Source: Pedobacter borealis DSM 19626 (GTDB lineage Bacteria; Bacteroidota; Bacteroidia; Sphingobacteriales; Sphingobacteriaceae). From it: a stretch of 64,000 nucleotides of DNA. The translations under genes and the position numbers were made by a program. The notes under the pieces are model-generated. The model had not been told where the DNA came from and made no database searches. It worked only from the letters and a program-made list of their open reading frames with translations. Each line of letters starts with the position of its first letter. The stretch's first letter is position 1. This document shows, piece after piece, positions 1-56,448 of this stretch. The DNA lies in the NCBI RefSeq assembly GCF_000708285.2, contig NZ_JAUG01000032.1, positions 1-64,000 of the forward strand, in the 5' to 3' direction.

Positions 1-944
1 AAAAAAGCGGCCTGCACGTATTGGCAGTCCATAAAATACAAAGCGACGGGGGTTGGGATTATATAAGTATCGATCAGCAGCACAACAATCTTTTTGTTTC
101 TCATGGTAATCAGGTAAATATATTAAATAAGAACAGTGGCGATTCGGTGGGCGTGATCCATAATACACTTGGTGTACATGGAATTGCAATTGCAGGTCCG
201 TTTGGGAAAGGGTACACCACCAATGGCAAAGCAGGTACTTGTACCGTTTTTGATTTGAACAACTTCACTGTGTCAGCGCAAATTAAAGTGGGACAGAACC
301 CTGATGCCACTTTCTTTGATGATTATAGCAAAAAAGTAATCGTATTCAATGGCAGAAGTAGTGATGCCAGTATTATCGATCCACAAACGGATCAGGTTAT
401 CGTAACGATTCCGTTAGGGGGTAAACCCGAAGCGGGCGTGTCAGACGGGAAAGGAAAAGTGTATGTAAATATCGAAGATACCGGAGAAATTGTTTGTTTT
501 GATATGGCCACTTATAAAGTTTTATCCAGGTATAAGCTAAAGGGTGGAGAAGAACCTTCTGGCTTGGCTATCGATCGTATAACATCAAGACTGTTTACGG
601 TTTGTGCCAACAAAGTGATGCTTATTCTGGATGCCAAAACAGGCAAACAGATTGCCTCGTTACCGATTGGCGATAATTGTGACGGTGTAGTTTTCGATCC
701 GGCTGCTAAATTAGCTTACAGCGCCAATGGAGAAGGCAATATAACAGTGGTAAAAGAGGTTTCAGCTAATAAGTTTATTGTACAGGAAACTGTAAAAACA
801 GAAGTAGGAGCAAGAACCATCGCCATTGATTTGACTAGTCATCACCTTTTTCTGCCAACGGCAGCCTTCGAAAAAAGTACAGATGCCAACCAACGTCCAC
901 ATCGTATTCCCGGAAGCTTTAAAATTATAGAAGTAGGTAAGTAG
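1..944 (+). CDS. YncE-like beta-propeller protein, 5' end outside the window
   Basis: The frame is open to the first base of the window, so the true start and probably a signal peptide lie upstream. About 313 residues are visible. They form repeated short beta-strand blades of the YncE/40-residue YVTN type, with phrases such as GWDYISID, KVYVNIEDTGEIVCFD and GLAIDRITSRLFTVCANK recurring at about 40-residue spacing. Family members are periplasmic or exported propellers whose ligand is mostly unknown. The C-terminal end (PGSFKIIEVGK) looks natural and a strong hairpin terminator follows 26 bases later. No motif reveals a ligand. Family assignment is fairly sure; function is not. Confidence 0.8.
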   Translation, partial: KSGLHVLAVHKIQSDGGWDYISIDQQHNNLFVSHGNQVNILNKNSGDSVGVIHNTLGVHGIAIAGPFGKGYTTNGKAGTCTVFDLNNFTVSAQIKVGQNPDATFFDDYSKKVIVFNGRSSDASIIDPQTDQVIVTIPLGGKPEAGVSDGKGKVYVNIEDTGEIVCFDMATYKVLSRYKLKGGEEPSGLAIDRITSRLFTVCANKVMLILDAKTGKQIASLPIGDNCDGVVFDPAAKLAYSANGEGNITVVKEVSANKFIVQETVKTEVGARTIAIDLTSHHLFLPTAAFEKSTDANQRPHRIPGSFKIIEVGK

Positions 945-969
945 AGGTATTTTAGCTTCTATTTTGGAT

Positions 970-1006
970 TGTCGAGATGCATATCGTGGCTTCTCGACAT
1001 TTTTTG
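970..1006 (+). terminator. Rho-independent terminator after the propeller gene
   Basis: Inverted repeat TGTCGAG (970-976) and CTCGACA (993-999) is followed at once by a run of T (1000-1005). It closes the transcript of the beta-propeller gene. Confidence 0.75.
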
Positions 1007-1430
1007 TTTAACCTTAATTAGAGGAATGTCTTAAGACGTTAAATCTTTATACTGAACAATCTAGCGTAAATGAAATCTTATTAATCTATAAATTTATTAT
1101 GAACTTTGCCTTATTTTACAGGACATCTCTTGTAATCATTCCTTTGTCTGGTTTTTTCAAGCCAGATCCGATATTATTTAACAGATACGCAGAACAAAAT
1201 TCATTTGGAAAGAAATGAGCAGGCATGGTATTGATAAAGGAAAAACAAACCATTAAACAGTAGGAGGATAGCATATTAGAATTTTACAAGCTAAACTATA
1301 TAAAAACGGGGAAACGCAAATGTATCTCCCCTGGATTAAATCATCGAAACAGGTCTTCAATTGGCGTTGGCACCTGAATCAATTTACCACTTAACAAAAA
1401 TGGCAGTCTGAGCCTGTCGAAGGCCTTATT

Positions 1431-1477
1431 TGTAGCCTCCAACTCCCCTCCTTATTTTGGAGGGGTTGGGGGCTACA
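1431..1477. repeat. Long imperfect palindrome (REP-like)
   Basis: TGTAGCCTCCAACTCCCCTCC-like left arm pairs with GGAGGGGTTGGGGGCTACA on the right across a 7-base loop, giving about 20 bp of stem. It is preceded at 1408-1423 by CTGAGCCTGTCGAAGG, the core shared with other extragenic repeats of this window (8.1, 17.6, 37.0 kb). Probably an extragenic repetitive element rather than a terminator, since no T run follows. Confidence 0.55.
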
Positions 1478-1845
1478 ATTAGTTTGTACATTTTTTATTT
1501 GAAAACGAACGTTCATACCGCTGTAGGTGCTGCAGCCCCGTTATTCACTCCAATCTTTTTATTGCAAATTTACCGCAACCAGCAGCAAGAATAGGGGGGA
1601 TTACGCTTCTGCAATAAAAAGGATTTCCGTTGCTACCGGGTTTATTGGTGAATGGGGCTGTGGTTCTTGCCCAATAACCCACCTTGTTGAATAAATTATA
1701 TGTAGCCAGAATATACTTATAATATACCATTTTGGCTGCGGATAAATAAATATCTACAGCCAAAATAATGCATTTAGTATGTGTTTTGGCTGTGGATAAA
1801 TATGGTTTTTGCTTCAATAAATTTTCTCGATCCACTGTACTATAT

Positions 1846-2030
1846 AATATAAATCGCGGGTGCGGTAATATAAATCGCGGGTGCAATAATATAAATCGCG
1901 GGCGCGGTAATATAAATCGCGGGTGCGGTAATATAAATCGCGGGTGCAATAATATAAATCGCGGGTGCGGTAATACAAATCGCGGGTGTAATAATATAAA
2001 TTGCGGGTAGGATAATATAATAGTTGGGTC
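1846..2030. repeat. 21-bp tandem repeat array, about 8.8 units
   Basis: Units start at 1846, 1867, 1888, 1909, 1930, 1951, 1972 and 1993, with a decayed ninth at 2014. Each has the core AATATAAATCGCGGGTGC followed by a variable triplet, in order GGT, AAT, GGT, GGT, AAT, GGT, AAT, GAT. The first six units therefore form two copies of a 63-bp higher-order period. Later units carry more substitutions. The 21-bp length keeps several frames open on both strands, which creates artefactual repeat peptides. Confidence 0.9.
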
Positions 2031-2423
2031 GATTTAATAAACTGGGGCATTTGTAGTGTGCAAAACGAATTGTGACAAATATCTAAAACAAAATGTGATA
2101 AATTAATAATTTCAAATGTTGATAAAACATGCGATGACAGGGTATTTAAGTTTCGAAGATCGACTCTAGTTGCAATTTGAAAAAAACAATCCTAATAAGT
2201 TTCCTGCTTTCTGTCATCTATATTTTATTACAGACTTTTTCACGATTTTAAAATTTAAAGGGAACTTGCTAGATTAGGCATAAATTAACGATCGATGAAT
2301 ACGCCCAAGCAAAGTCTTAAACAAAATCGGCCTGGTTATCTACCGAAACTATTTTAAAGGGATCAGCTGATGAGAAAATCAGTTTAGTTATTTCTTAACG
2401 AATAACAACCAGACTTATCATGG

Positions 2424-2468
2424 AAAACCACCAAAATTGGGGAAGAACCACTTTAGCCAAAATATGCA
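2424..2468 (+). repeat. 45-bp interspersed repeat, copy 1
   Basis: Shares AAAACCACCAAAA, TGGGGAAGAACCAC and AAATATGCA in the same order and overall length with 5112-5156. An inverted partial copy is at 4889-4917. It lies about 190 bases before the first JAB-lipoprotein gene. Confidence 0.6.
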
Positions 2469-2656
2469 CATGAACGCATCACTAATTGCAGCGGTATCTT
2501 TCGCCAGAAGGTAAAGCAGAAAGGCGGGCCCGTAGAGGATGCCAGAATTATATAAGAGACTTACAATTGGGATTGCAATACGTATACAAAAATTATATAT
2601 TTATCGAATGCTATTATTGTAATTAATCATTCATTAACCTCTAATCATTTGAAAAA

Positions 2657-4183
2657 GTGCAAAACAAAAAATCTAAAACGCTACGGCAGTTGGGCATTTC
2701 ATGCCTGATCCTGCTACTCTTTAATGGATCCTGTAAGAAAGATCAAAAAGCAGAACTCCAAAGCCTTAGTCTCAATGAGCTGAAAAGCTGGTATGCTAAA
2801 GAGATACAGGTCAATAAAGCCAGCATGTTTGCGGGCTATGCACCGAATTGGGAAAATAGCTTCACCAGTTCAGTAGATGGCTACACTGTTACCGAGGTGA
2901 GTTTCAGTAACCCGAACAAGGTTGCTATGATGACCCGAACAAATGCTGGTGGTGACGCTGAAAAAGACAGGGCTGCTGATGCAGCTCAAGTAAAACTCAT
3001 TTTTTTTAACCAACCGGGCTCCGCTACCGTATATGCTGCCTATATGATGCTGCGTGGTGAAGGAAATCAGGATATTGCCAATGTTCACTACAAAGACTTT
3101 GGGCAATACAGCGGTGTGCTGAACTACTTTAATATCGATGGCTCGTTCCAGAACGGTTATACAATCAGTTCAGGAAAAATTGCGCAAACCTTGACCAGGT
3201 CGGTCTTAACGGCCGACCAACTATTGAGCCTTAAAGAACGTAAACCTTTCGTAGGGAACGGCCCTGGGGATCGGGTGATGCTTTATGATTCCAACACAAA
3301 CTGCGATGTAACTGTTTACGATTACTACTACGAAACTTGTGTCTATATCGTGGGCTATCCAGAGCTGGGAACTGTTTGTTCCTACCAGTTTGCTTATTCC
3401 GTTCCGGTCATTACCTGTTATGGCAGTGGTGGTGGCGGTTCCGGCGGCGATGGTGGGTACAGCGGTGGAGGCAGCGGCGGCGGTTCAGGTGGCGGTAGCA
3501 CACCTACCACACCAACTCCTGATCCTTACAACCTATGCGACAGGCTATCAAAAGTGAACGAAGTTGCGAGTAATACCTCATTTGCAGCCAAAAATACGGA
3601 CGCGAGAATGGGTACATCTGCAACCGGATATGAATATGGATATGAGCAGAAACTTACATCAGTAGGAGGCAGTACGTATAAAGATATTTCAATACGGACT
3701 GATCAGAGTACTAACTCATTCAATTCCTATTTTAGCTGGAATTCAACAAGTGGATATACGATAGGCGATGTACATTCGCATCCACTGGGGTCTGCACCTT
3801 CACCAGCCGACGTTTTTGGAATGGTAAAAAACCTGAACAGTACCCAGCTTCAGAATGCAGGAACGAGTGATATCGATTTCTATAAAAGGAACGTTTCTAT
3901 TACCGTGCTCACTGCTGGAGGGAATTATGTCGTTACCGTAAAGGACTGGAGTTTGCTTACTGCAGCTTACAATACTTACTTAAATGATATAAATGCTTAC
4001 AATACGAACTACGCAACTTTAATGTCCCAACCAGGTGGAAGCGAAAAGGCTCTTCTGGGTTTATTAGGCAATGCAATAAACTTATATAAATCTAACAGTG
4101 ATGGCACCAATACAAAGCCGTTGGTGTTAGGGTCAAATGGAGAAGTTAGCAATTTTAATTGCAATCCGGGATCAATAGAATAA
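2657..4183 (+). CDS. Lipoprotein with C-terminal JAB/JAMM-like metalloprotease domain
   Basis: 508 residues from a GTG start; no earlier in-frame ATG exists. Residues 1-26 are a lipoprotein signal peptide with lipobox LFNGSC, so the product is expected at a membrane facing the periplasm or cell surface. Residues about 27-254 are an unrecognised beta-rich domain ending in a Cys/Tyr-rich part. A Gly/Ser linker with a Pro/Thr tail (about 255-290) joins it to the C-terminal domain. That domain contains Glu326/Glu330 in YEYGYEQKL and HSHPLGSAPSPAD (His373, His375, Ser382, Asp385), the JAMM pattern of a zinc metalloprotease, although the spacing from the second His to Ser is one residue shorter than in RadC. 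The partner gene starts 24 bases downstream. A paralogue lies inverted at 6630-7829. Substrate unknown; JAB assignment rests on the motif only. Confidence 0.75.
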   Translation: MQNKKSKTLRQLGISCLILLLFNGSCKKDQKAELQSLSLNELKSWYAKEIQVNKASMFAGYAPNWENSFTSSVDGYTVTEVSFSNPNKVAMMTRTNAGGDAEKDRAADAAQVKLIFFNQPGSATVYAAYMMLRGEGNQDIANVHYKDFGQYSGVLNYFNIDGSFQNGYTISSGKIAQTLTRSVLTADQLLSLKERKPFVGNGPGDRVMLYDSNTNCDVTVYDYYYETCVYIVGYPELGTVCSYQFAYSVPVITCYGSGGGGSGGDGGYSGGGSGGGSGGGSTPTTPTPDPYNLCDRLSKVNEVASNTSFAAKNTDARMGTSATGYEYGYEQKLTSVGGSTYKDISIRTDQSTNSFNSYFSWNSTSGYTIGDVHSHPLGSAPSPADVFGMVKNLNSTQLQNAGTSDIDFYKRNVSITVLTAGGNYVVTVKDWSLLTAAYNTYLNDINAYNTNYATLMSQPGGSEKALLGLLGNAINLYKSNSDGTNTKPLVLGSNGEVSNFNCNPGSIE

Positions 4184-4207
4184 TTTTTTACCTTAAAAAA
4201 GACAAAC

Positions 4208-4747
4208 ATGAAAATAATACTAGTTGCAGCACTGATAAACTGCTGTGTCCTGTTTCAGCAGGATGAGCCATTAAGCAAAGTAGCCAATGTTGAGCTCCCT
4301 CAGAAGTCCTTGCGCATGAACAAGGCTAGCCTACCTGCAAAGGCGAAAGGTAGGTTTAAATCAACCCTTGCCATATCGAAATATGAACACGTTTATGAGG
4401 TGGATAATGTATTGTTGGCTTTTGCTGATTATAATGAGGCCAAGGATGACTTTAAGGGACTTGAAGACAGAAAGACCGAATGGCTCGGGGGAATGAGCGA
4501 GTTGGGGTTAAAAGCGAATGTTGACAAAGCTGAAATTATCAAGGTCAACAATACAAGGTTCCTGATTATGGGATTAAAGAACGGTGATGAATATTACTGT
4601 TCATTTATCTCTGATAAAAAAGGTTCCAGGGGCATATCCGGTAGTATTCAATATAAGGCCGAGGATAAGGACAAGGCAGAAAAAATATTGAGTGACTTCC
4701 TCAAACGCATCAGTTTTAAAGCGCCTTCCTTATCAAGAGATAATTAA
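4208..4747 (+). CDS. Exported partner of the JAB lipoprotein, unknown function
   Basis: 179 residues. The N-terminus (MKIILVAALINCCVLFQQ) looks like a short signal peptide; Cys12 or Cys13 could also be a lipidation site. The rest is a soluble alpha/beta domain without recognised motifs. It is clearly homologous to the product at 6085-6606: shared elements include VLLAFADYN against VVLAYDDY, GMSELGLK against GMMGELNLK, and KAEKILSDFLKRISFK against TADRILSDFMQNIAFK. It follows the JAB-lipoprotein gene by 24 bases and is closed by a terminator, so the two form an operon. Conserved pairing suggests inhibitor, immunity, chaperone or substrate, which is inference. Confidence 0.75.
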   Translation: MKIILVAALINCCVLFQQDEPLSKVANVELPQKSLRMNKASLPAKAKGRFKSTLAISKYEHVYEVDNVLLAFADYNEAKDDFKGLEDRKTEWLGGMSELGLKANVDKAEIIKVNNTRFLIMGLKNGDEYYCSFISDKKGSRGISGSIQYKAEDKDKAEKILSDFLKRISFKAPSLSRDN

Positions 4748-4788
4748 GTTTCTAAAGAAACAAATCAGTTAAAATAGTAGCATAGATT

Positions 4789-4819
4789 GGCCCTGTAGAA
4801 AAATCTACCGGGCCTTTTC
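4789..4819 (+). terminator. Terminator of the first JAB module
   Basis: GGCCCTGTAGA pairs with TCTACCGGGCC across an A-rich loop and is followed by TTTTCT. It ends the two-gene transcript 2657-4747. Confidence 0.75.
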
Positions 4820-4888
4820 TGCTTGTAGGATTAACCCAGATTAGAAATCTTTAAATTAGGGATCTGGAGGAGAGTGGGTATTTCGGCG

Positions 4889-4917
4889 AAAATGGTTCTT
4901 CCTCACTTTTGGTGGTC
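4889..4917 (-). repeat. Interspersed repeat, inverted partial copy
   Basis: Read on the minus strand it gives GACCACCAAAAGTGAGGAAG followed by AACCATTTT, matching the first half of the 45-bp repeats at 2424-2468 and 5112-5156. Together with 5112-5156 it forms an inverted pair about 200 bases apart. Confidence 0.55.
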
Positions 4918-5111
4918 AGTATTTTGTTTAATTTCACAACAGACCTCTTCTAATAACGCCTGAATCCTCTAATTGACGTTCATGACTATTAGTAATATGT
5001 TCTTCTTGGGTTAAAAAGGAATTGTCATCTAATCATTGTATGACAAATAACTGTGTTGGGTGCATTACAGCCGATATTTTTTATTAGATTCATTCAAATA
5101 TTCAGCGACTA

Positions 5112-5156
5112 AAAACCACCAAAAGTGGGGAAGAACCACCATTAGTGAAATATGCA
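5112..5156 (+). repeat. 45-bp interspersed repeat, copy 2
   Basis: AAAACCACCAAAAGTGGGG, then AAGAACCACC and AAATATGCA, equal in length and order to 2424-2468. The surrounding 4820-5388 segment holds no credible gene. Confidence 0.6.
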
Positions 5157-5439
5157 ATCTAGGGTACCCTCAAATAAAAAGCGTGGCTTGTACATTTTGT
5201 TTCTATAAAGATAGTTGAATTAAGCTCTGTTTAAACTTAATTTGTCTGTCGAGATGTTTGCAATACTAAGACAGTCGATCTATAAATAAAAAATTGAAGC
5301 GAGGCAGGTATTTAATTATTTATTATAAGCCCAGGCATACTGGTGAAAGTCTAGCATCACTTCGGTTTTCCGACGTTGGTTGCAGTGACCTGGGCGCATA
5401 TTTAACTTTTTTTCAAAATGCAACCAACGAAAAATCAAA

Positions 5440-5856
5440 TTGCTTAAGCTTAGCTATCAAGCACTCCAACGGCCCTTAGATGTAAGTAAGGCTAAGTTTT
5501 CTTTTAAATTTTTAAAATGGATCGGCTGCGAACCATTGACAAAGCACGAAAACAAACATTACATCTTATTTGTGAACGAAAAACAGCATGTATTTTCCTG
5601 GTACAAAATCCAAGAGTTTGGAAAAGCTGGTAATTGTTTACAACAAATAACGGGTTTAGCACAGGCCTGTAATGCTTATGAAATAGTGCTTTTAAAGTAT
5701 TGCAACAAAAAAGAGATTACTATAGATGCTGCTGATGAACTCTTTATAAACATTTGTTTTAATGCCTGTGAAAAAGTGAAGATTGATATTATAGATTATA
5801 TAATCTGCAATCCAAAAACATATTTGAGTTATAGGAAAAAATGCCTTAATGATTAA
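5440..5856 (+). CDS. RadC-like JAB-domain relic lacking the metal site
   Basis: 138 residues if the TTG at 5440 is used. The frame is open only from 5389 and contains no ATG at all, so the 5' end may be lost. Residues about 40-70 (YILFVNEKQHVFSWYKIQEF, then GKAGN) resemble the RadC segment with LLN...V.GW.KIS.GG..GT. Residues 88-136 (YEIVLLKYCNKKEITI, FNACEKVKIDIIDYIICNP, YLSYRKK) resemble the RadC tail (IILVHNHPSG, LT..A....I.LLDHIII, YYSF). The HNHPSG...PS..D metal-binding loop is missing. It is followed by its own terminator (5863-5893). A degenerate or repurposed RadC-family protein is my best reading. It sits between two JAB-motif lipoprotein modules. Confidence 0.5.
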   Translation: MLKLSYQALQRPLDVSKAKFSFKFLKWIGCEPLTKHENKHYILFVNEKQHVFSWYKIQEFGKAGNCLQQITGLAQACNAYEIVLLKYCNKKEITIDAADELFINICFNACEKVKIDIIDYIICNPKTYLSYRKKCLND

Positions 5857-5862
5857 AAATAA

Positions 5863-5893
5863 AAAGGTTGCTTCAAAATGTGAGGCAACCTTT
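5863..5893 (+). terminator. Terminator after the RadC-like gene
   Basis: AAAGGTTGC (5863-5871) pairs with GCAACCTTT (5885-5893). It lies 7 bases after the stop codon, supporting that the 5440-5856 frame is, or was, a real gene. Confidence 0.7.
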
Positions 5894-6084
5894 ATTATGT
5901 TTGTAAATTAATTCTTGTTAAAATGATTAATAGGAAGATATGGAAACAGAACTCTATTTCAAATATTATCAATTAAATTAGTTCATTAAAGTTTAGTCTT
6001 TTGGGCGATTATTGTTTCATTATCTACATAAATTTAGGCTCTTGGCGATTTGATGTTTTTACTTAGGCAGTAAATTAATAAAGA

Positions 6085-6606
6085 TTATTTTTTAAAGGCT
6101 ATATTTTGCATGAAATCACTCAAAATTCTATCCGCAGTTTTTTTGTCGGATTTCTTGAAAAGAATTTTAGCAATTATAGCTTTTTTATACTTAGGATCAG
6201 AAATTACTGTATAAAGATATTCATCATTAGAAAGCGTTTGCCAAACAAAATATTGTCTATTATTTATTTGTGTAATTTCTGACTTTACAATATCGTTTTT
6301 AAGATTTAATTCCCCCATCATTCCTTCCATTTCACCTTTTATCTGGATTAGGGTTTTTGTCTCTCCTTTTGGAAGGATATAATCATCATAGGCTAACACT
6401 ACATTTTTTATTTTATAAATATTTTTTTTTGCATTAATATAGTTTTCACCTTTAAAATTCTTTTTAATGTAGGTTGATGCTTCTGATTTTACTAGTTTTT
6501 TTGCATTTTCTGGGATTTTAACTGTTATCGAATTATTTGGTAGATCTTGCGACTGTATCAGTGTTAGAAAATATACAACTGTGGATATTATAAGGCTTGT
6601 TTTCAT
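6085..6606 (-). CDS. Exported partner of the second JAB lipoprotein
   Basis: 173 residues from the ATG at 6606. The frame extends to 6645, but the internal start begins a proper signal peptide (MKTSLIISTVVYFLTLIQSQ) and leaves a 23-base gap to the preceding gene, almost the same spacing as in the paralogous module (24 bases). The mature domain matches the product of 4208-4747 through its C-terminal 110 residues (VVLAYDDY, GMMGELNLK, YTVISD, ADRILSDFMQNIAFK). The Asn/Lys-rich N-terminal part differs more. Function unknown; the conserved order lipoprotein then partner argues for joint action. Confidence 0.75.
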   Translation of the reverse strand: MKTSLIISTVVYFLTLIQSQDLPNNSITVKIPENAKKLVKSEASTYIKKNFKGENYINAKKNIYKIKNVVLAYDDYILPKGETKTLIQIKGEMEGMMGELNLKNDIVKSEITQINNRQYFVWQTLSNDEYLYTVISDPKYKKAIIAKILFKKSDKKTADRILSDFMQNIAFKK

Positions 6607-6629
6607 GTTATGAGGTTTTTGAATTGAGT

Positions 6630-7829
6630 TTAATATTCTGGACATATTTTAAAAGCTGGTAAATCATCAGCCCCTCTTTCCCGTGGTTCATATTTTCCGG
6701 CACTATTTTCTTTGTAAAGATTGATGGCATTACCTAATTTTTTTAATAAGGCATTTTCTGTGCCCCCGCCCTCCGCCGCAAGCTTCGCGTAATCTCTATT
6801 ATAAGCGTCCATGTTTGCAGTGTATTGTGCGTACGCTGTTTTTAATACTGTCCAGTCCTTTACAGTTGCAATATATTTTTCGGAACCGCTTACTACAGTA
6901 ATCGAGACATTATTCTTATAAAAGTCGATTCCAGTATCTGAGCTTTCAACGGTAGTCAGATTTTTAATCATACCAAATATATCAGCTGGAGATGGTGCAC
7001 TGCCGGTTGGATGCGAATGTGTATCACCGATTGTATATCCTGTGGTCGCATTCCATGTGAACTTCATAGTGAATTTATTTGTGCTGCCATCAGTTCTAAC
7101 AGGAATATTCATATAAGAATTTGTTGAACCGAATGACTGGACTTTCTGTTCGTAACCATATTCGTCACCAGTTGCAAGCGTACTGTAAATTACTTCTTTG
7201 TTTTTATTTATTAGAACTGTGTCTTTCATCATATCCCTAATTTTCAGCTTCTGAATACATGGATCAACAACCCGTTCAAAGCCAACATCGCCATCGCAAA
7301 GCTGTTCAGTCGGTTCATACTGCTGTCCTGGTGGTTGGTAATTTAGTCCTTTAGAAGTTGCCAGTTGAAAAGCATTATATTGTGCAGTCTGAAAAGCATT
7401 TAATGCATCTTGTTGACTCTCATACCGCGAACTCACAACTTCATTAAAACTTGCTACGATTATATCATTAACCTCATATAAAACTTCTATAGGTAATCCT
7501 GATAAATAACCTTCCATATGTGGCACAATATAATAGCAGTTTACTTTAGGCGGGGCAGCTAAGATTATTTTGTCAGTTTTATGTAAGCTATTGATAGTTG
7601 CAATTTTATCTGCTCCCTTTAGTTCTTTTTTTCTGTCTACAGAAATCTTTACCATTTTAGGCAAAAGTTCTGCCTCTCTTCTGCAAGAACTTATTACTAG
7701 CAAAGTAAAACAAAAAATAAAACTGAGCCTGTTTAAAAAATAATTTTGGGATGGTGGAGGTAAATTTAGTCGTTTTTTCAATACTAAGTAAGCCATGTCT
7801 CTGGCTTTGATAGGCGTTAATTTTTTCAT
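6630..7829 (-). CDS. Second JAB/JAMM-like lipoprotein, paralogue
   Basis: 399 residues. The signal peptide core FIFCFTLLVISSC ends in a lipobox Cys near residue 49, so either the N-terminus is unusually long or a later non-ATG start is used. The region to about residue 220 is unlike the N-terminal domain of the 2657-4183 paralogue and has no Gly/Ser linker. The C-terminal 180 residues are closely related: DEYGYEQKV, GYTIGDTHSHPTGSAPSPAD (metal ligands His271, His273 and the following Ser/Asp), KNNVSITVVSG, VKDWTVLKTAY and LGNAINLYKENS. The shared module is therefore the JAB domain, attached to different exported N-termini. Transcribed with its partner at 6085-6606, in opposite orientation to the first module. 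Confidence 0.75.
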   Translation of the reverse strand: MKKLTPIKARDMAYLVLKKRLNLPPPSQNYFLNRLSFIFCFTLLVISSCRREAELLPKMVKISVDRKKELKGADKIATINSLHKTDKIILAAPPKVNCYYIVPHMEGYLSGLPIEVLYEVNDIIVASFNEVVSSRYESQQDALNAFQTAQYNAFQLATSKGLNYQPPGQQYEPTEQLCDGDVGFERVVDPCIQKLKIRDMMKDTVLINKNKEVIYSTLATGDEYGYEQKVQSFGSTNSYMNIPVRTDGSTNKFTMKFTWNATTGYTIGDTHSHPTGSAPSPADIFGMIKNLTTVESSDTGIDFYKNNVSITVVSGSEKYIATVKDWTVLKTAYAQYTANMDAYNRDYAKLAAEGGGTENALLKKLGNAINLYKENSAGKYEPRERGADDLPAFKICPEY

Positions 7830-8053
7830 CGTTAATTTAAATTTTTAAAAGTGAGAGGAATGATGTGGCAAACATACAGCAATAGAACTGTTACTTAAAA
7901 TGAAATTATTGAATTTTACTCGAAGCTATGTAAATGACGTGTATATAACGCGAGAACCACCTATAGTTTTAGTTTTTTTTACATGTACTTTGTTTTAGCA
8001 CAAGATTTCAATTGACTTAATCTAAATGATGATTACGAATTTACTCAATAAAA

Positions 8054-8206
8054 AAGAGGTTGTATCATAAATATAGATTTGTCATCCTGAGCCTGTCGAA
8101 GGGCCTGTTAAATACGCTTTGAGGTGTTTCGACAGGCTCTCCGTAGGAGTCCTTTGGACAACATGACAGCATTTGAAGTGAAATCGTCTTTATGATACAA
8201 TCTCTT
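8054..8206. repeat. 153-bp element with terminal inverted repeats
   Basis: Left end AAGAGGTTGTATCATAAA (8054-8071) and right end TTTATGATACAATCTCTT (8189-8206) are inverted repeats with one mismatch. The interior contains GTCATCCTGAGCCTGTCGAA and GACAGGCTCTCCGTAGGAG. A second element with the same ends lies in the opposite sense at 36991-37124. No coding capacity; MITE-like or REP-like. Confidence 0.7.
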
Positions 8207-8241
8207 AATCAAACAGTTATAGGGAACTGTTAAAAATATAC

Positions 8242-9015
8242 TTACAATTTCATTCTTGTAAAAGTTAGGGCTAAAATATGTTTACGCTGAGGGTGGTCAA
8301 TATTTAAAGATGCTTTAATATAACTTTTAACACCTAATACAGTATCGACCAAGCCGATTTGTTCTGTATGAAAGATATTAAATCGGTTCCTACGCGCATC
8401 ATCAACAGGTGTCTTAGCAATAGCAACAGCTGTTATATTGCTCTCCATACTCGCTAGTAGGGTTTGGAAAGAGACTATACTGATATCCTCTTGAGTAGGT
8501 TCGTAAACTTTACTCGTGGCTAGCACATCAATGTATTGTTTAAGATTCTCCACTCTATTGTCGTACGATACCCGCGACTTAGACGGGCCAGCGGCACCAT
8601 CAGCGGATGTGCTATTTTTCCCAATTCCTCTTAAACGATCAGCAAGTGTTTTAGCCGTTTGTAACTCGGCAGGGTTATCAATAGCTGCCTTTAAATAATT
8701 ATAACTTCTGGTAATTAATGCATTTAAAGATTTGAAAATGAGTTCTTGTTCATCAACAGCTTTACTGTAAACGGGCAAAACCAAACTTAGGGCACGGGTA
8801 GCATCGTCTGCATTTTTCGATAAGATTTCTAAAGCCTCTACTGATAGTTTGGGCTTGGGTGGATTATAATCATCCCCAAGGGTTTTTAAACGGATAATTA
8901 AATCTTTTAAATTGGCTGCTTTTTTTGCATAGCCACTTTCTGAGTTCGCCATAAGCTTTTCTAATTTAGGTAGGTTTTTAGTTAATTGTAAGAGAATATT
9001 TAAACTTAAAATCAT
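8242..9015 (-). CDS. Hypothetical helical protein, 257 residues
   Basis: No recognised family. The sequence is mostly amphipathic helix without a convincing signal peptide or membrane segment, so a cytoplasmic protein is likely. The C-terminal part (VDDARRNRFNIFHTEQI, VLGVKSYIKASLNIDHPQRK, ILALTFTRMKL) looks like a compact domain. The start at 9015 is the first ATG and has no strong ribosome binding site. It is monocistronic, between a repeat element and a 536-base gap. No function is proposed. Confidence 0.6.
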   Translation of the reverse strand: MILSLNILLQLTKNLPKLEKLMANSESGYAKKAANLKDLIIRLKTLGDDYNPPKPKLSVEALEILSKNADDATRALSLVLPVYSKAVDEQELIFKSLNALITRSYNYLKAAIDNPAELQTAKTLADRLRGIGKNSTSADGAAGPSKSRVSYDNRVENLKQYIDVLATSKVYEPTQEDISIVSFQTLLASMESNITAVAIAKTPVDDARRNRFNIFHTEQIGLVDTVLGVKSYIKASLNIDHPQRKHILALTFTRMKL

Positions 9016-9551
9016 CCTCTACAAATGTAGTAGACAAAACTTTGCCTAAATTTCTCATTTGGGAATCTTAAAACAGAAAGCAAGAATGCCTACCATTAAA
9101 TTTTCGATGGAAACCTTTTCAAATGGTTCGAAAACCCTGATTTAATCTCTAATGCTTAGGTGAAAAAATTACTTCTTTGCCATTATATGCGTGCGAATAA
9201 AACTGTAGACGTTTTTGCCATATTTCCCCATTTCGCGCTACCTATGTGGAATTACTTCCTCATATTTTTTATTATTTCTACATTATGGCCTTTAAAATGT
9301 AAAGCCTTTAAAATAGCGGTAAACGAAAAGTTTTAATACCATTTTGCCAGGCAATGGGCAATTGTGGCAAAGGCATTGCAGCACAGCTTAAATAAGCACG
9401 GTAAATAGATCATTTGCTTTGGGCTTAAATAATTGGTAACGCAAAAATTAGTCAATCGTTTGCGCTGATATTTATGTTGTAATGCTCATTTGCTTGTTCT
9501 ACTTTTAAAGAAAAGAATACAAATCAACAAAACCGAAAAGAACCAGCACAA
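9016..9551. other. Intergenic gap upstream of GH35
   Basis: No gene, RNA or repeat recognised. It must contain the divergent promoters for the hypothetical gene (minus) and the GH35 gene (plus). TTTG at 9459-9462 followed by TAATGCTC at 9480 is only a poor match to the Bacteroidota promoter. Confidence 0.4.
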
Positions 9552-11879
9552 ATGCGTATCCATTTGCTTACAAAAACACTTGTTTTAGGGCTATTAATAA
9601 GCTTATCTGTTAATAGTTGGGCCCAAAAAGAAAACACCTTTGCAATAGGTGCCGAATCTTTTGAGCTTAATGGCAAGCCATATGTAATACGCTGTGGCGA
9701 AATGCATTTTGCCCGTATACCAAAAGCCGAGTGGAAACAACGTTTGCAAATGGCCAAAGCAATGGGCTTAAACACGGTTTGTGCTTACTTATTTTGGAAT
9801 ATACACGAAAAACAGCCCGATCAGTTTACCTGGACAGGGCAGAGTGATGCTGCCGAATTTTGTAAACTGGCAAAAGAGGTTGGCTTATATGTAATATTAA
9901 GGCCAGGGCCATATTCTTGTGCCGAATGGGAGTTTGGCGGTTTCCCCTGGTGGCTGCTTAAAGATAAAAGCATCCGCTTGCGTACGCAACATCCATATTT
10001 CTTAGAAAGAGCCAAAAAGTACCTTTTAGCTGTAGGCAAACAGCTTGCCCCATTGCAGTTTAGCCGCGGTGGCAACATTATTATGGTGCAGGTAGAAAAC
10101 GAGTACGGCAGTTATGGCAATGATAAAGATTATATGAACATCATTAAAGCCAATTTACAGGAAGCTGGCTTTACCGTTCCTTTATTTCATTGCGATGGGC
10201 CTTCGCAGTTAAAAAACGACCACCCTGAAGGTTTGTTCGCGGTGGTAAATTTTGGCAGCGGACCAGAAGCTAATTTTAAAGCCTTAAGGGCCATACAGCC
10301 TACAGGGCCGTTAATGTGCGGCGAATATTACCCGGGCTGGTTCGATAGCTGGGGCAGGCCGCACCACAAAGGTGATACCCAGCGCATTGTAGCCGAGTTA
10401 AAATACATGCTCGATCATAAAGCATCGTTTAGTATTTATATGGCACATGGCGGAACAAGTTTTGGTACTTACAGTGGCGCCAATGCACCGCCTTACCTGC
10501 CGCAAACCAGCAGTTACGATTACGATGCCCCGATTGATGAAGCCGGAAATACAACCGAAAAGTTTTATGCCATCCGTAAGTTATTTGCCAATTATCTGCA
10601 AGAAGGGGAGGTATTGCCAGATGTACCTGCAGCAAACAAGATCCAGCAATTACAAGCGGTTACGTTCTCCTCAATAGCTGTACTATCTAAAAACCTGCCT
10701 AAGCCTGTACTGGCCGATACCGCAATGCTGATGGAAGATTTAAACCAGGATTTTGGTTGTGTAGTATATGAAACCAATTTGGCAGCAGGCCAAAAATCGA
10801 ACCTGGTGTTTAAAGACATTCACGATTATGCTTTGCTATACATTGATGGTAAAAAGATTGGCGAGCTGGATAGGAGAAAAAATAAATTCAGCATCGAAAT
10901 TCCCGCCCGCCCGCGTAAAAGTGTATTAAGGGTTTTGGTAGAAGCCACAGGCAGGGTAAACTACGGCTACCAGATGCACGATCGGAAAGGAATCCATGGG
11001 GAAGTATACCTATCCGAAAATGGAAAACAAACTGTTTTAAAGGGCTGGAAAAATTACCCCATCAGGCTTGGTGAAGTAAATATTCCGCTTAGTTACGAAA
11101 AACTTGGCAATCAGCCTGCTGCAGCTACTTTTTACAAAGGAAGTTTTAATGCCGATAAATTAGAAGATACTTACCTCGATATGGGTAAATGGAATAAAGG
11201 CCTAGTCTGGTTAAATGGGATGTGCTTGGGTAGGTACTGGAATATCGGTCCGACGCAAACCATGCTTGTGCCGGGCAGCTGGTTAAAGAAAGGAAAAAAT
11301 GAAGTGGTGGTATTCGACCTCTTCGGAACCGAAAAACCTGCATTAAGCTTTTTAGATAAACCCATTTTGGATGTGGTGAACGAAAAACAGCCCGAGCTGC
11401 ACAAAAAAGATAACCAAAAATGGGTTTCGGATGCACAGCAAGCTTATGCCGAAGGCAGTTTTGCGAACGATAACAAATGGCAGCAGGTTAGTTTTAAACC
11501 TGTAACCGCGCGTTATTTTTGTTTAGAAGCACTATCCGAGCAAAAAGGACAGCCTTACACCACGGTTGCAGAAATTGTACTGCTTGATGATAAGGGGAAC
11601 GAAATTCCGCGCAGCGACTGGAAAATAGTATATGCCGATAGTGAAGAACTGGGTGGAGATGACGGAAATGCCGCTAATGTTTTTGATTTGCAGTTTACCA
11701 GCATCTGGCACACCCAGTGGGAATCTAAATCGCCGAAACCGCCACACCAGATCGTAATAGACCTGGGTAAAAACTACATTATAAAGGGATTAAAGCTATT
11801 ACCCAGACAAGATAATGCCAATGGAAGAATTAAAGATTACAGATTATATTTTAGCCAGACACTTTTTAAAAACCTTTAG
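9552..11879 (+). CDS. GH35 beta-galactosidase with C-terminal discoidin-like domain
   Basis: 775 residues. A signal peptide (to about residue 25, SVNSWAQ) sends it to the periplasm or beyond. The GH35 TIM barrel starts with GKPYVIRCGEMHFARIP and carries both catalytic glutamates: Glu184 in ENEYGSYG (acid/base) and Glu258 in CGEYYPGWFDSWG (nucleophile). Residues about 380-620 form the jelly-roll domains (YETNLAAG, DRKGIHGEVYL, GKWNKGLVWLNG, GRYWNIGP). Residues about 650-775 look like an F5/8 type C (discoidin) carbohydrate-binding domain (ARYFCLEALSEQKG, TVAEIVLLD, IWHTQWES, HQIVIDLG). The enzyme removes terminal beta-galactose. The next genes, GH109-type protein and NahK-like kinase, run the same way. 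Confidence 0.92.
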   Translation: MRIHLLTKTLVLGLLISLSVNSWAQKENTFAIGAESFELNGKPYVIRCGEMHFARIPKAEWKQRLQMAKAMGLNTVCAYLFWNIHEKQPDQFTWTGQSDAAEFCKLAKEVGLYVILRPGPYSCAEWEFGGFPWWLLKDKSIRLRTQHPYFLERAKKYLLAVGKQLAPLQFSRGGNIIMVQVENEYGSYGNDKDYMNIIKANLQEAGFTVPLFHCDGPSQLKNDHPEGLFAVVNFGSGPEANFKALRAIQPTGPLMCGEYYPGWFDSWGRPHHKGDTQRIVAELKYMLDHKASFSIYMAHGGTSFGTYSGANAPPYLPQTSSYDYDAPIDEAGNTTEKFYAIRKLFANYLQEGEVLPDVPAANKIQQLQAVTFSSIAVLSKNLPKPVLADTAMLMEDLNQDFGCVVYETNLAAGQKSNLVFKDIHDYALLYIDGKKIGELDRRKNKFSIEIPARPRKSVLRVLVEATGRVNYGYQMHDRKGIHGEVYLSENGKQTVLKGWKNYPIRLGEVNIPLSYEKLGNQPAAATFYKGSFNADKLEDTYLDMGKWNKGLVWLNGMCLGRYWNIGPTQTMLVPGSWLKKGKNEVVVFDLFGTEKPALSFLDKPILDVVNEKQPELHKKDNQKWVSDAQQAYAEGSFANDNKWQQVSFKPVTARYFCLEALSEQKGQPYTTVAEIVLLDDKGNEIPRSDWKIVYADSEELGGDDGNAANVFDLQFTSIWHTQWESKSPKPPHQIVIDLGKNYIIKGLKLLPRQDNANGRIKDYRLYFSQTLFKNL

Positions 11880-12006
11880 TCCTGTTAAGGAGCTGTAAGT
11901 GAGTGTGGTTTGGTGCGAAAAAGTGCGAAAGAATGGCAAGTAAAACGTTTGTTCAGTATTAACCGGATCAATTAAAAAACTAAACAATAAATATTAAATA
12001 ACACAA

Positions 12007-51732: not shown

Positions 51733-52042
51733 CGATCCGAAAGTTCAGGCAAAAGTTTTTTTGTACGAACTTAATAATACAAGGCACGAATATGGTTTTT
51801 CTGCAACTGAAGAATGGACTTTAGATTTGGCGACAAATAATCAGAAAAAGGACCTGGAGAATAAATATTATCCCTTATTATCCTTAACCATAGTACCAGA
51901 AAATATAATTGGAATACTCGATCTGTTGCAAGAGAAGCTTGGAACCGCAGTTACCAACATCAAGGATAACCTTAATCCCAAGAAAATTTCAAAAGAATCT
52001 GTTAATCTATTGGCTTATTGTACGGGAAGATTAAAGTATTAA
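51722..52042 (+). CDS. Hypothetical protein, 106 residues
   Basis: Start ATG 51722 chosen over an upstream start at 51629 because the upstream part is the other frame of the small basic gene. The product (KVFLYELNNTRHEYGFSATE, EWTLDLATNNQKK, LEKYYPLLSLTI-like strand, LDLLQEKLGTAVTNIKDNL) is a soluble alpha/beta protein with no family I recognise. It probably forms a two-gene unit with 51601-51732. Confidence 0.6.
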   Translation: MASNDPKVQAKVFLYELNNTRHEYGFSATEEWTLDLATNNQKKDLENKYYPLLSLTIVPENIIGILDLLQEKLGTAVTNIKDNLNPKKISKESVNLLAYCTGRLKY

Positions 52043-52078
52043 TTTTAAAATAGAAGAAGCTGTGCCATTGGTATCGAT

Positions 52079-52375
52079 TTGTCATCCTGAGGGTTATTTA
52101 TTTTATAAAAATGAATATAAGTGACAGAGGATTTAAGAGATTAAATCTCCTCAGATTATCGTCATTGCGAGGCGGCCTTTTCAGCCGACAAAGCAATCTT
52201 ACAACTATCGCTAGTAGCGAGCGCTTTAAGATTGCTTCGTGCCTCGCAATGACGACCTTTCTATTGGGGTCTGTCGGTAACTGTCGGAAAAAGGTTTAGT
52301 GCATTTTTAAGCGTTTGGATAAGCTCTCCGTAGGAGTCCTTTGGACAACGCGACAAATTCGATTGAAATAAATTT
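52079..52375. repeat. Composite REP-like element, second copy
   Basis: Blocks TTATTTATTTTATAAAAATG, CGTCATTGCGAGGCGG, GACAAAGCAATCTTACAAC and AAGATTGCTTCGTGCCTCGC recur in the same order as in 24137-24563. CGTCATTGCGAGGC and GCCTCGCAATGACG form a long hairpin. The right edge carries CTCTCCGTAGGAGTCCTTTG. No clear terminal inverted repeat is left. Confidence 0.6.
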
Positions 52376-52376
52376 T

Positions 52377-52442
52377 ATGGCTACAGAGGATGTAGGCCTT
52401 TTAGCAGCGCTTGCTGTTTTTGTTGTGGTTGCCATTTTGTAA
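52377..52442 (+). CDS. Possible 21-residue membrane peptide
   Basis: ATG 52377 to TAA 52442 encodes MATEDVGLLAALAVFVVVAI plus Leu, a short acidic start and one hydrophobic segment. It starts just after a repeat element. Length and lack of other signals make chance likely; listed because one-helix micropeptides are easily missed. Confidence 0.2.
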   Translation: MATEDVGLLAALAVFVVVAIL

Positions 52443-52582
52443 TTCTTTATATTATATATAAAGAGCCATTGCATTGATGAAAAGGTTTAACCATCTCATT
52501 TAAGCGCAAAGAAGTACTCGCCGCCGTTAATACGCTAAATGAAATATAATTTTCTAATCAGATAATTATACCGATTTAACAA

Positions 52583-52783
52583 TCAGGAAATGCTGATTTT
52601 TTTCTTTTGCTGGTTTAAATAAGCTGTAATTTGATTTAACATAATGCTTCTTGTTGCCCTAACCGCAGATTTCAAAACTTCAGAACTTACGCCTAAACGC
52701 TTAGCCCAATAATTTCGATCCGTTTCTTCGGATAATAAGATGATTTCTTCTTTAATGCTCGGGGTTTGGATGAGATTTTTCAT
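52583..52783 (-). CDS. DUF3606-like small protein
   Basis: 66 residues from ATG 52783 (frame open to 52819). EEIILLSEETDRNYWAKRLG followed by VSSEVLKSAVRATRSIMLNQ and ITAYLNQ fits the DUF3606 pattern (helix, YW...GVS..EL..AV..V....V..YL). Such proteins are small, cytoplasmic and of unknown role. Monocistronic. Confidence 0.65.
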   Translation of the reverse strand: MKNLIQTPSIKEEIILLSEETDRNYWAKRLGVSSEVLKSAVRATRSIMLNQITAYLNQQKKKISIS

Positions 52784-53007
52784 GATTGGGATGATTAATT
52801 CAGTTAATAACACGCACAAGCTCGATTTGGTTCAATAAAAATAGTTTTTTTATTTGTAATAACAATTTGTAAACCAGCTGTTTGAAAAAAAAAATAACAT
52901 TTAAATCATAATTAAAATAAAGTCAAAATCGTTCATTCTCTTCTATTAATTCGTTTTAGTAATCATAAATGGTATATGAAATATTAATAACTATACAAAA
53001 AAAATAA

Positions 53008-53035
53008 TTTTATGTATCTTTAATTATACATAAAA
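53008..53035. promoter_or_regulatory. Inverted repeat upstream of the OB-fold-like gene
   Basis: TTTTATGTAT (53008-53017) and ATACATAAAA (53026-53035) are perfect 10-bp arms around CTTTAATT, 39 bases before the ATG. TATCTTTA inside it is one mismatch from TAnnTTTG, so this may be an operator over a promoter. Confidence 0.35.
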
Positions 53036-53074
53036 TGACTATAATTGTCTGTTATTTATAAAAAATATTCTGTA

Positions 53075-53290
53075 ATGGGCGATATGAGGAAGGGAGACGT
53101 TACTCAAATTGACTTTGAATATGGACACGGAATCATTATTGACGAAAATGGCCAGGATATTCACTTTCAATTAGATAATATATCTGATCAAATTAATATA
53201 AATTCGAAAATAATTTTTGAAATAGAATTACACAAACGTGGTTTGGTAGCGGTTAACGTTAAATTAGAAATGGAAGAAATAAGCGGTTAG
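53075..53290 (+). CDS. Small cold-shock/OB-fold-like protein
   Basis: 71 residues from ATG 53075; the frame opens at a TTG (53045). MRKGDVTQIDFEYGHGIIID, IHFQLDNIS and SKIIFEIELHKRGLVAVNVK follow the order of a cold-shock domain (KG.V..ID...G.G.I, IHF....I, V.F......G..A..V), although the aromatic RNP residues are not conserved. A nucleic-acid-binding role is possible. Monocistronic. Confidence 0.6.
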   Translation: MGDMRKGDVTQIDFEYGHGIIIDENGQDIHFQLDNISDQININSKIIFEIELHKRGLVAVNVKLEMEEISG

Positions 53291-53326
53291 TTTCACTTGC
53301 CCAAAGCAAATTAATGTTACAGATTA

Positions 53327-55180: not shown

Positions 55181-55204
55181 AAATTTAAGTTGACACTTTT
55201 TCAA

Positions 55205-55766
55205 ATATAATCGTTAAGTAGTTAATCACCAACCGATTTGTAAGGATGATATAATATTTATCATACAGAACGGTATAAATAATAAGTGTGATGTTTTTCT
55301 GTTTGATTGTAAGTAGTTGTGGCTCAGTATTTAGTCCCTGGTTTGTTATCGTTAAATATTCATATATACGAGGGACTATAAAAAATGGTATATAATATTT
55401 CGTTTGCTCTTCAGTTACGAAAGGGCATTCATTCGAGATTATATTTGTAAAATCGCCTTAATGTTTTTATGCAATCGAATTGATTTTATGTTATATCAAT
55501 ATGAAAAAATTGTAAAGTCAAAAGTGTAAAAATCAATAGCCTAATTATAAAGTAGGACCTTACTTGGTGATTATGACTGATTTGTAAGACAATATTAAGT
55601 GAGAATTTGTTGGAAATGATGTCTTTTTAAGTAGAAAAAAAGTTTTTATGTGTTTTTTCTTTAAAATTATTTATCTGTTAATCAGTTGTTTATGTTTTGT
55701 TTTTAAATTAAATGTTTGATTTAAGCGATTTAACATTTCTTGCTTAAATTTTTTTAAAAATTTATA
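55205..55766. other. AT-rich gap between histidine kinase and the small RNA
   Basis: About 560 bases, very AT-rich, holding the kinase promoter on the minus strand. No gene or repeat recognised. Confidence 0.4.
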
Positions 55767-55774
55767 TATATTTG
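55767..55774 (+). promoter_or_regulatory. -7 box of the candidate small RNA
   Basis: TATATTTG matches TAnnTTTG exactly and ends five bases before the first hairpin. TTG at 55740-55742 is a -33 candidate but the spacing (24) is longer than usual. Confidence 0.45.
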
Positions 55775-55778
55775 TTCT

Positions 55779-55846
55779 TACCCTTTCGAGGGTATGTTTT
55801 TCATAGGTAGATGTAGGGTCAGAACAATGTTCTGGCCCTTTTTTGT
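55779..55846 (+). ncRNA. Candidate structured small RNA upstream of ubiX
   Basis: Hairpin 1: TACCCT-TTCG-AGGGTA (55779-55794), a six-pair stem with UUCG tetraloop. Hairpin 2: AGGGTCAGAAC (55815-55825) with GTTCTGGCCCT (55829-55839), eleven pairs, followed by six T: a strong terminator. It comes after an exact -7 box and 33 bases before the ubiX start, with no open frame inside. Either a separate RNA of about 70 nt or a leader/attenuator for ubiX. Confidence 0.55.
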
Positions 55847-55878
55847 TTTAATGGATTTAGAAAAACTATTTTTGTGTT

Positions 55879-56448
55879 ATGATGAAAAAGAAAGTGATTG
55901 TTGCGGTTACAGGTGCCAGCGGATCTATTTATGCAAAGGTTTTATTTGACCGGTTATTAACATTAAAAGATCAGATTGAGGCAGTTGGTGTAGTGATGAG
56001 CGATAATGCAAAAGCGGTTTGGCAATTCGAACTGGGGAACCAGGATTATAACCATTTTAAAGACTTTACCTTTTATAACAAAAACGATTTTAATGCTCCT
56101 TTTGCCTCAGGGTCGGCAAAATACGATACCATGATTATTATTCCTTGTTCTATGGGAACTTTGGGTAGGATAGCACATGGAATATCGAACGATTTGATTT
56201 CAAGGGCAGCAGACGTTGTGTTAAAAGAACGCAGGAAATTAATAGCTGTAGTAAGAGATACCCCGTTCAGTTTAATCCATATCAACAATATGAAAACCGT
56301 AACTGAAGCGGGTGGAATCATCTGTCCGGCCAATCCGTCTTTTTACAGTTTGCCTCAAACAATAGAAGAAGTTGCTGGCACGGTAATTAGCCGGGTGTTA
56401 GACCTGGCAGGTTTCGAGCAGGAAAGTTATCGGTGGCAGGAAGGTTAG
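55879..56448 (+). CDS. ubiX: UbiX-type flavin prenyltransferase
   Basis: 189 residues. Makes prenylated FMN for UbiD-type decarboxylases. Family marks: VTGASGSIYAKVL (near residue 10), IIPCSMGTLGRIAHGISNDL, RAADVVLKERRKLIAVVRDT, INNMKTVTEAGGIICPANPS and FY. No ubiD gene lies in the window. Preceded by a candidate small RNA or attenuator. Confidence 0.92.
   Translation: MMKKKVIVAVTGASGSIYAKVLFDRLLTLKDQIEAVGVVMSDNAKAVWQFELGNQDYNHFKDFTFYNKNDFNAPFASGSAKYDTMIIIPCSMGTLGRIAHGISNDLISRAADVVLKERRKLIAVVRDTPFSLIHINNMKTVTEAGGIICPANPSFYSLPQTIEEVAGTVISRVLDLAGFEQESYRWQEG

Follow-up and report, generated by a model that had tools for sequence, protein, structure and literature searches.

The window examined here is a 64,000 nt stretch of Pedobacter borealis DSM 19626, positions 1 to 64,000 of one contig (C32) of the 5.5 Mb genome. 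It contains two two-gene units on opposite strands, at 2657-4747 and 7829-6085. Each unit encodes a candidate lipoprotein toxin with a C-terminal domain carrying the JAB (JAMM) metalloprotease motif, followed after 24 nt (unit 1) or 23 nt (unit 2) by a gene for an exported partner that we propose to be its immunity protein (Table 1). This arrangement of lipoprotein and homologous exported partner had been described in a first-pass annotation made from the sequence alone, and the open reading frames (ORFs) sit where that annotation placed them.

Table 1. Features of the two inverted units, in window coordinates
Feature	Position	Strand	Remarks
Lipoprotein toxin candidate 1	2657..4183	+	508 aa, GTG start
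Escort domain N1	2732..3418	+	N1 profile match, E 6e-67
JAB/JAMM domain 1	3518..4180	+	Cys at both ends; model pLDDT 92.5, JAMM-like fold, conservation
Metal-site codons, JAB domain 1	Glu 3632-3634, HxH 3773-3781, Ser 3800-3802, Asp 3809-3811	+	
Exported partner 1 (putative immunity protein of the periplasm)	4208..4747	+	179 aa, predicted Mog1/PsbP fold
Lipoprotein toxin candidate 2	6630..7829	-	399 aa as called; lipobox Cys codon 7685-7683, N2, C-terminal JAB
Escort domain N2, unrelated to N1	7263..7685	-	relatives at C45 of this genome (G000:C45) and in G203 and G150
JAB/JAMM domain 2	6633..7274	-	Glu codon about 7163-7161, HxH about 7019-7011; 58% identity with domain 1
Exported partner 2 (putative immunity protein of the periplasm)	6085..6606	-	173 aa from inner ATG; 33% identical to partner 1

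The lipoprotein of unit 1 consists, in order, of a signal peptide, a putative lipid-attachment cysteine (residue 26), an N-terminal domain that we call escort N1, a Gly/Ser-rich linker and the JAB domain. Its lipobox, FNGSC, is atypical and was not recognised by our lipobox pattern. The unit 2 lipoprotein probably starts at a later ATG than the one called at 7829, from which the lipobox cysteine would be residue 49. The identity between the two JAB domains extends across 167 residues (192 compared) and that between the two partners across 169 aa (E 5e-30). At E 1e-3 the N-terminal region of unit 2 (locus L002) matched no other in the comparison, in agreement with the earlier description of the two N-terminal domains as unrelated.

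Residue conservation was scored in an alignment of 31 JAB loci. Both histidines and the aspartate of the JAMM pattern were present in all 31 and the glutamate in 30, while the serine position held Ser in 28, Thr in two and Asn in one. The sole row lacking the glutamate (L018) is a short ORF that is missing the normal upstream part. A cysteine flanks the domain on both sides in 31 of 31 loci, a pairing that suggests, from sequence, a disulfide and an oxidising compartment. The classical JAMM motif has seven residues between HxH and Ser; both window domains have six and are thus one residue shorter. In an AlphaFold model of JAB domain 1 built from 15 sequences (pLDDT 92.5, pTM 0.90), Glu 39 lies just before the first strand (40-46), the HxH (86, 88) closes the second strand (79-87), and Ser 95 stands ahead of a helix (96-106) that contains Asp 98. 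This is the order expected for JAMM proteins. A Foldseek search of the model against the PDB gave no match at E <= 0.001 (best 0.065); its top fifteen rows were AMSH, CSN5, proteasome-lid and spliceosome entries, the latter two presumably Rpn11 and Prp8, both MPN proteins, and the lower rows were mixed. With VIA-align the best row was the JAMM domain of Schizosaccharomyces pombe Sst2 (7lm3_A; Z 8.8, rmsd 3.2, 142 aligned), and the best 50 rows were JAMM/MPN proteins, among them chains that we take to be Prp8 and EMC. The structure prediction proposed in the first-pass annotation thus came out JAB-like, and a JAMM-like fold for the C-terminal domain is supported by the model. On the residue pattern and the predicted fold, the domain would be a zinc-dependent peptidase, with zinc binding and protease activity both putative.

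The profile search against JAB/MPN families that had also been proposed gave weak matches to two such families, all of them under the cut-offs. The unit 1 lipoprotein scored 16.3 bits (full protein) and 18.2 bits (domain) against Toxin-JAB1 (PF15659), where the gathering cut-off is 21; no match to this family was listed for the unit 2 lipoprotein in the Pfam scan, and the family matched three of 15 JAB family members at E <= 10. Against Prok-JAB (PF14464) the window proteins scored 15.4 and 17.0 bits for a gathering cut-off of 25. Membership of either family was rejected. Searching the sequences of solved structures with the JAB profile returned nothing up to E 1, and an NCBIfam scan of both units returned nothing close to its cut-offs. 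PADLOC gave weak matches of the unit 2 lipoprotein, near the metal motif, to TIR/SAVED-JAB effector and JAB models (best E 1e-4).

Both window N-terminal domains belong to families that are fused elsewhere to other C-terminal domains. A profile of N1, built from 12 sequences, was found in 88 genomes and 13 genera of a family sample of 301 genomes and 25 genera (own genome included), and in 9 of the 247 genomes searched in a phylum sample (own included). Pfam recognised little in the 12 members, with one weak match in a single member (DUF1942, E 0.068). We fetched 60 stretches around some of the places listed and read the C-terminal parts of the N1 proteins. Among 91 unique complete proteins, 84 had a C-terminal part longer than 60 aa, and after trimming of the linkers these fell into 21 classes, of which 10 had two or more members and 11 were singletons. 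An HExxH class was the largest (31 members, motif in all), followed by the JAB class with 20 and by classes of 4, 4, 3, 3, 2, 2, 2 and 2. Linkers were trimmed since the glycine-rich linker had joined 72 proteins in untrimmed clustering; trimming also cost some JAB rows their metal motif and shortened other tips.

Pfam matches among ten representatives of these tips were to Peptidase_M23 (E 1.7e-14) and Peptidase_C39_2 (E 7e-10), with SprT-like on one tip just below its cut-off (E 1.5e-5; 25.2 against 25.6 bits) and sub-cut-off matches to VWA7_N, DUF6765 and zinc phospholipase C on another; the remaining representatives had nothing above the Pfam cut-off. Other tips can be described by motif only, namely EExxHAxQ and an NC-type papain-like tip (by eye), and a two-member class (L164, L179) might, on sequence, be nucleases. 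A divergent JAB-like tip class comprises L149, L150 and L177, plus L240 outside the family; the proteins downstream of L149, L150 and L240 differ from the partner and look lipocalin-like by eye. Locus L086 (genome G171; 560-6405) holds a series of N1 proteins whose tips are of the M23 and EExxHAxQ kinds, plus small neighbours. This series includes two partner-like genes without a JAB gene, and L165 extends it upstream with a C39 tip. N2 was found in three of 145 genomes of the genus including this one. The own genome has a second N2 (C45), joined to an HExxH domain and with an exported neighbour of its own, a combination also seen in G150, and an N1 protein at C5 carries a tip other than JAB and has a small ORF downstream. 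Given these two additional proteins, one and the same genome has the same tip on two escorts and two tips on each escort. A conserved N-terminal part with exchangeable C-terminal tips is a hallmark of polymorphic toxins, and the N1 and N2 families display it.

The partner gene follows the tip rather than the escort. The test covered 96 complete, non-redundant N1 or N2 proteins whose downstream sequence ran to 400 bases or more; two others lacked that room and were dropped. A partner detected by profile lay downstream of 16 of the 19 proteins with the canonical JAB motif and of one of the 77 others, some of which are fragments; the loci as a whole were not randomly sampled. The single exception (L046) is a JAB gene with an early frame end. 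Pairwise identities of JAB domain and partner were correlated (r 0.83, n 28). The Fisher p for the association with the tip (2.4e-14) and the permutation result for the correlation (0 of 2000 as high, largest 0.28) are not clean probabilities because part of the loci came from searches with the JAB domain and the partner and because related genomes lack independence. Correlations with the N-terminal region were lower (JAB r 0.58, partner r 0.63; n 23), and shared genome ancestry contributes to all three. In its adjacency and its association with the tip, the gene next to the lipoprotein gene is as expected of a tip-specific immunity gene.

What defines a polymorphic toxin system, according to PMC12419801 and PMC3482391, is a common N-terminal part that carries interchangeable tips and has immunity genes linked to it. 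Since shuffled tips and linked putative immunity genes are what we find here, we read each unit as a toxin-immunity pair of a modular (polymorphic) Sphingobacteriaceae lipoprotein toxin system, in which a JAMM peptidase forms the tip and the immunity protein is periplasmic, and we put the probability of this reading at about 0.7. Toxicity, target, delivery route and binding of the tip by its partner are the parts that we infer, and the sequence of events would be as follows. The lipoprotein would be exported and then anchored through its lipidated cysteine. The escort, N1 or N2, would serve display and delivery, and the linker would join it to the exchangeable C-terminal tip, which here would be a JAMM-type, zinc-dependent peptidase domain with a closing disulfide. 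By contact or in vesicles the tip would reach the envelope of a related neighbour and cleave a protein or peptide there, while in the periplasm of the producer the partner would bind the tip and protect against the cell's own toxin and that of its kin. The first-pass annotation had offered three roles for the partner, as inhibitor, immunity protein or substrate. Of these immunity fits best because partners occur in tandem arrays and as orphan genes and because the partner follows the C-terminal domain.

The predicted structure of the partner was compared with known folds. A model of partner 1 (AlphaFold, 18 sequences, pLDDT 90) matched CyanoP (E 5.4e-5), DcrB (1.2e-4) and the EagR-type chaperone SciW (1.5e-3) in Foldseek. 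The highest VIA-align score was to BT_1490 (Z 11.4); EagT6 (10.3) and SciW (9.4) were also among the matches, and the immunity proteins of type VI secretion systems (T6SS) scored in the same range, TplEi/Tli4 with Z 10.0 and 9.4 and Tsi3 with 8.4. The partner is accordingly predicted, from the model, to adopt a Mog1/PsbP (DUF1795-like) fold. By sequence, the partner profile found one chance-level match and none of relevance among solved structures, and Pfam matches (DUF4830, Dip and similar) were weak and scattered. An in-house rule recognised a signal-like N-terminus in 28 of 29 partners, the exception being L018, which was read from an internal start. One of the 29 matched the lipobox pattern; at L045 the signals of all five partners end, by eye, in a lipobox-like cysteine.

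The likeness to EagT6 and SciW raises the question of whether the partner is instead an EagR-like chaperone of the Mog1/PsbP/DUF1795 fold, which would assist secretion or folding and load the effector and would confer no immunity. EagR proteins are cytoplasmic, whereas export signals are nearly universal among the partners. The titles of the structure entries place SciW on a transmembrane domain and EagT6 on an N-terminal part, while the partner tracks the C-terminal tip and not the N-terminal escort (the 16 of 19 against 1 of 77 above), and arrays of five or more partner copies suit immunity better. Despite the shared fold, we regard a chaperone role as highly improbable.

A single-protein query found the JAB domain at 39 places in 34 of the 301 family genomes (4 of 25 genera), and the partner profile matched 47 of them (5 of 25 genera). 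In the phylum sample the JAB profile matched 3 of 296 genomes, a count that includes the own genome and one weak match. Fifteen loci with named relatives came from Pedobacter, Mucilaginibacter and metagenome-assembled genomes of Bacteroidota, including one Chitinophagaceae bin. We read 31 of the 39 places and counted as adjacent any ORF of 100 aa or more on the same strand whose start lay between 60 bases before and 400 bases after the JAB stop codon. Such an ORF was present for 29 of the 31 JAB genes. At one of the two misses (L010) the locus is cut by the contig end; at the other (L027) the following ORF starts about 110 bases inside the JAB gene and has a weak partner-profile match (L115, E 5e-5). 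The genome survey for adjacency suggested in the first-pass annotation therefore favours its view of JAB domain plus partner as the conserved unit, as does the finding that the partner follows the JAB tip.

Several single JAB genes are followed by more than one partner copy: two at L044, three at L105 and L108, five at L045 and L107, and at least six at L106. The five tandem partner genes of L045 lie at 4204-7445, behind a JAB gene with a short N-terminus in which no lipobox was evident by eye. Among 35 loci fetched for context, 25 had a partner only, nine had a JAB match and one (L111) had neither; the figure of 25 is not a frequency, as many loci were chosen for a partner match without a JAB match, and E values reach about 1e-7 for the weaker partner-only matches. 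In one orphan partner (L084), from a genome (G179) where the JAB query found nothing, 26 of the 30 N-terminal residues are the same as in window partner 1. Tandem copies and orphans are in keeping with immunity genes of polymorphic toxins, for which polyimmunity loci have been described (Zhang et al. 2012; PMC3482391).

These distributions also bear on the possibility that the lipoprotein is no toxin at all and acts as the producer's own surface or periplasmic maturation protease, with the partner as its dedicated inhibitor or its substrate, in the processing of surface proteins. Such a system would be equally compatible with the lipoprotein-like anchor and with the export of the partner, which could be an inhibitor of the producer's protease. 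The patchy occurrence (34 of 301 and 3 of 296 genomes), the sharing of escort domains with M23, C39 and HExxH tips, and the tandem arrays and orphans of the partner all speak against it, and we consider a maturation protease unlikely.

Recognised lipoboxes were present in 65 of the 84 N1 proteins; position +3 was K or R in 63 of them, and position +4 was D or E in 53. For comparison we took SusD homologues of the own genome (30 loci of 49 matches), 27 of which had a lipobox; all 27 had K at +3 and only 11 had D or E at +4. Export signals were likewise derived from SusD N-termini in PMC5080379. The sorting-signal pattern of the N1 proteins, compared without periplasm-facing controls, is consistent with surface exposure on sequence grounds. 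The lipoprotein is probably anchored in the outer membrane, possibly facing out.

A further question is the compartment in which the tip acts. In print (PMC3482391) the related toxin domains Tox-JAB-1 and Tox-JAB-2 have been suggested to be nucleases, and the JAB tip could by extension be a cytoplasmic nuclease toxin. Against this stand the export of the proposed immunity protein, the cysteines that bracket the domain in all 31 loci, and the M23 and C39 peptidases that serve as sister tips of the same escort; for these reasons the envelope is the likely site of action, the periplasm is a likelier place than the cytoplasm, and a cytoplasmic nuclease appears very unlikely.

Several observations weigh against the toxin-immunity interpretation. 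The Foldseek search of the JAB model fell short of significance, and the fold likeness of the partner reveals no function, as the Mog1/PsbP fold also occurs in PsbP, DcrB, LpqN and EagR chaperones. No profile-detected partner follows three of the 19 canonical JAB genes (L023, L028 and L031), each of which has a downstream ORF of partner size beyond the profile's reach, and the reservation attached to the Fisher and permutation results counts here as well, as does the lack of controls in the sorting-signal comparison. Orphan partners are unexplained single genes, and partners in general could have a role of their own. By escort, the 31 JAB proteins read divide into 17 with N1, two with N2 and 12 with neither; some of these 12 are short or cut ORFs and several are lipoproteins with other N-termini. 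The JAB proteins of L025 and L030 have no convincing lipobox. Because these 12 match neither escort and L025, L030 and L045 have no evident lipobox, the architecture of lipoprotein plus N1 or N2 is not universal among JAB proteins.

More broadly, the pairs may belong to a so far undescribed class of outer-membrane lipoprotein polymorphic toxins of the Sphingobacteriaceae, in which at least two unrelated escorts deliver interchangeable, largely peptidase-like tips to the envelope of neighbours. The JAMM tip would then be antibacterial outside the cytoplasm and would be blocked by a dedicated immunity family of Mog1/PsbP fold, spreading in the form of arrays and orphans. We hold this wider proposal tentatively, at slightly worse than even odds. 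To our knowledge there is no characterised precedent for an antibacterial JAMM peptidase acting outside the cytoplasm. A lipid-anchored, cysteine-bracketed JAMM domain with an exported protector would offer a testable case of an extracytoplasmic JAMM peptidase, and the pairing of tip and protector a direct route to the substrate of such an enzyme.

The surroundings of the two units were also inspected. Between them, at 5440-5856 on the plus strand, lies a short RadC-like JAB ORF (PF04002, 27.7 bits for a cut-off of 22.1) without the HxHP motif, which is possibly a relic. Unit 1 is flanked by a 25-bp repeat at 2427-2451 (+), 4892-4916 (-) and 5115-5139 (+). Allowing up to three mismatches, this repeat occurs six times in the genome (three here, two on C88 and one on C71) and a reversed control occurs not at all; the C71 copy is close to ORFs resembling an IstA/IstB transposase. 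The repeat could be the end of a mobile element or a regulatory site. Upstream of unit 1, at 1844-2020, there is a tandem array of a 21-bp unit in 8.4 copies. At 33%, the G+C content of 6001-8000, the bin that holds unit 2, is below that of every other 2-kb bin of 1-12000 (35-43%). Since the bins of 52001-56000 and 62001-64000 are equally low, the value hints at recent acquisition at most. Beside unit 2, an ORF of 257 aa at 8242-9015 (-) had only weak, chance-level Pfam matches.

Lastly, we compared the two units with known systems. A literature search, which covered few subscription papers, yielded no description that we recognised as this toxin system. Contact-dependent inhibition of the CdiA/CdiB type, contact-dependent competition having been one suggestion of the first-pass annotation, was rejected on the lengths of the lipoproteins (Table 1) and of the longest ORF overlapping 1-12000 of the window (775 aa). 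The closest system by tip is Tox-JAB-1 (PF15659) with Imm65, which, according to PMC3482391, likewise has a JAB-type C-terminal tip with E, HxH, S and D in Bacteroidetes and an exported neighbouring immunity protein. The same source treats earlier prokaryotic JAB domains as intracellular and the toxin JAB domains, guessed to be nucleases, as unexpected. It gives Tox-JAB-1 RHS repeats where our proteins have lipoprotein escorts, and Imm65 a lipobox, a pattern matched by only one of our 29 partners. Toxin-JAB1 loci were found in three of the 301 family genomes. An hhalign comparison of our JAB alignment with four Toxin-JAB1 domains was not significant, and one of the partner with three Toxin-JAB1 neighbours, themselves not confirmed as Imm65, gave a probability of 0.04%; the alignments were shallow and distant kinship is possible. 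Membership of the Tox-JAB-1/Imm65 system was rejected, as the N-termini are N1 and N2 rather than RHS and the neighbours there have no similarity to the partner. Toxin JAB domains as such are therefore already known (Tox-JAB-1 and -2), and it is the clade, the immunity family and the escorts that differ here.

The predicted fold and metal-site residues of the JAB domain are those of AMSH/Sst2, Rpn11 and CSN5. It differs from these in being exported and bracketed by cysteines and in its HxH-Ser loop, one residue shorter, and we would not expect a ubiquitin-like substrate. The partner shares its predicted fold with the T6SS immunity proteins Tsi3 and Tli4/TplEi (Z 8.4 to 10.0), from which it is set apart by the lack of any relevant sequence match of its profile among solved structures; Tsi3 is periplasmic, with MOG1P and PsbP named as its structural neighbours (PMC3792639). 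The toxins of the 2025 Lipocone paper (PMC12419801) resemble ours in joining a lipobox and a cystatin-like N-terminal escort to several C-terminal tips and in having immunity proteins outside the cytoplasm. The tips named there are different (Lipocone, ColM-like, START-like, papain-like acyltransferase and VanY-like), and the main immunity protein is BamE-like. For delivery the nearest working model, by analogy, would be the SitA toxins of myxobacteria, which according to PMC8546572 are modular lipoproteins with several unrelated N-terminal escorts and cognate immunity, and which differ in that their nuclease tips act in the cytoplasm and their transfer needs outer membrane exchange. The wider family, with N1 in 88 of the 301 sampled genomes, would be a SitA counterpart in another phylum and would hold a rich store of antibacterial tips aimed at the envelope and of immunity proteins.

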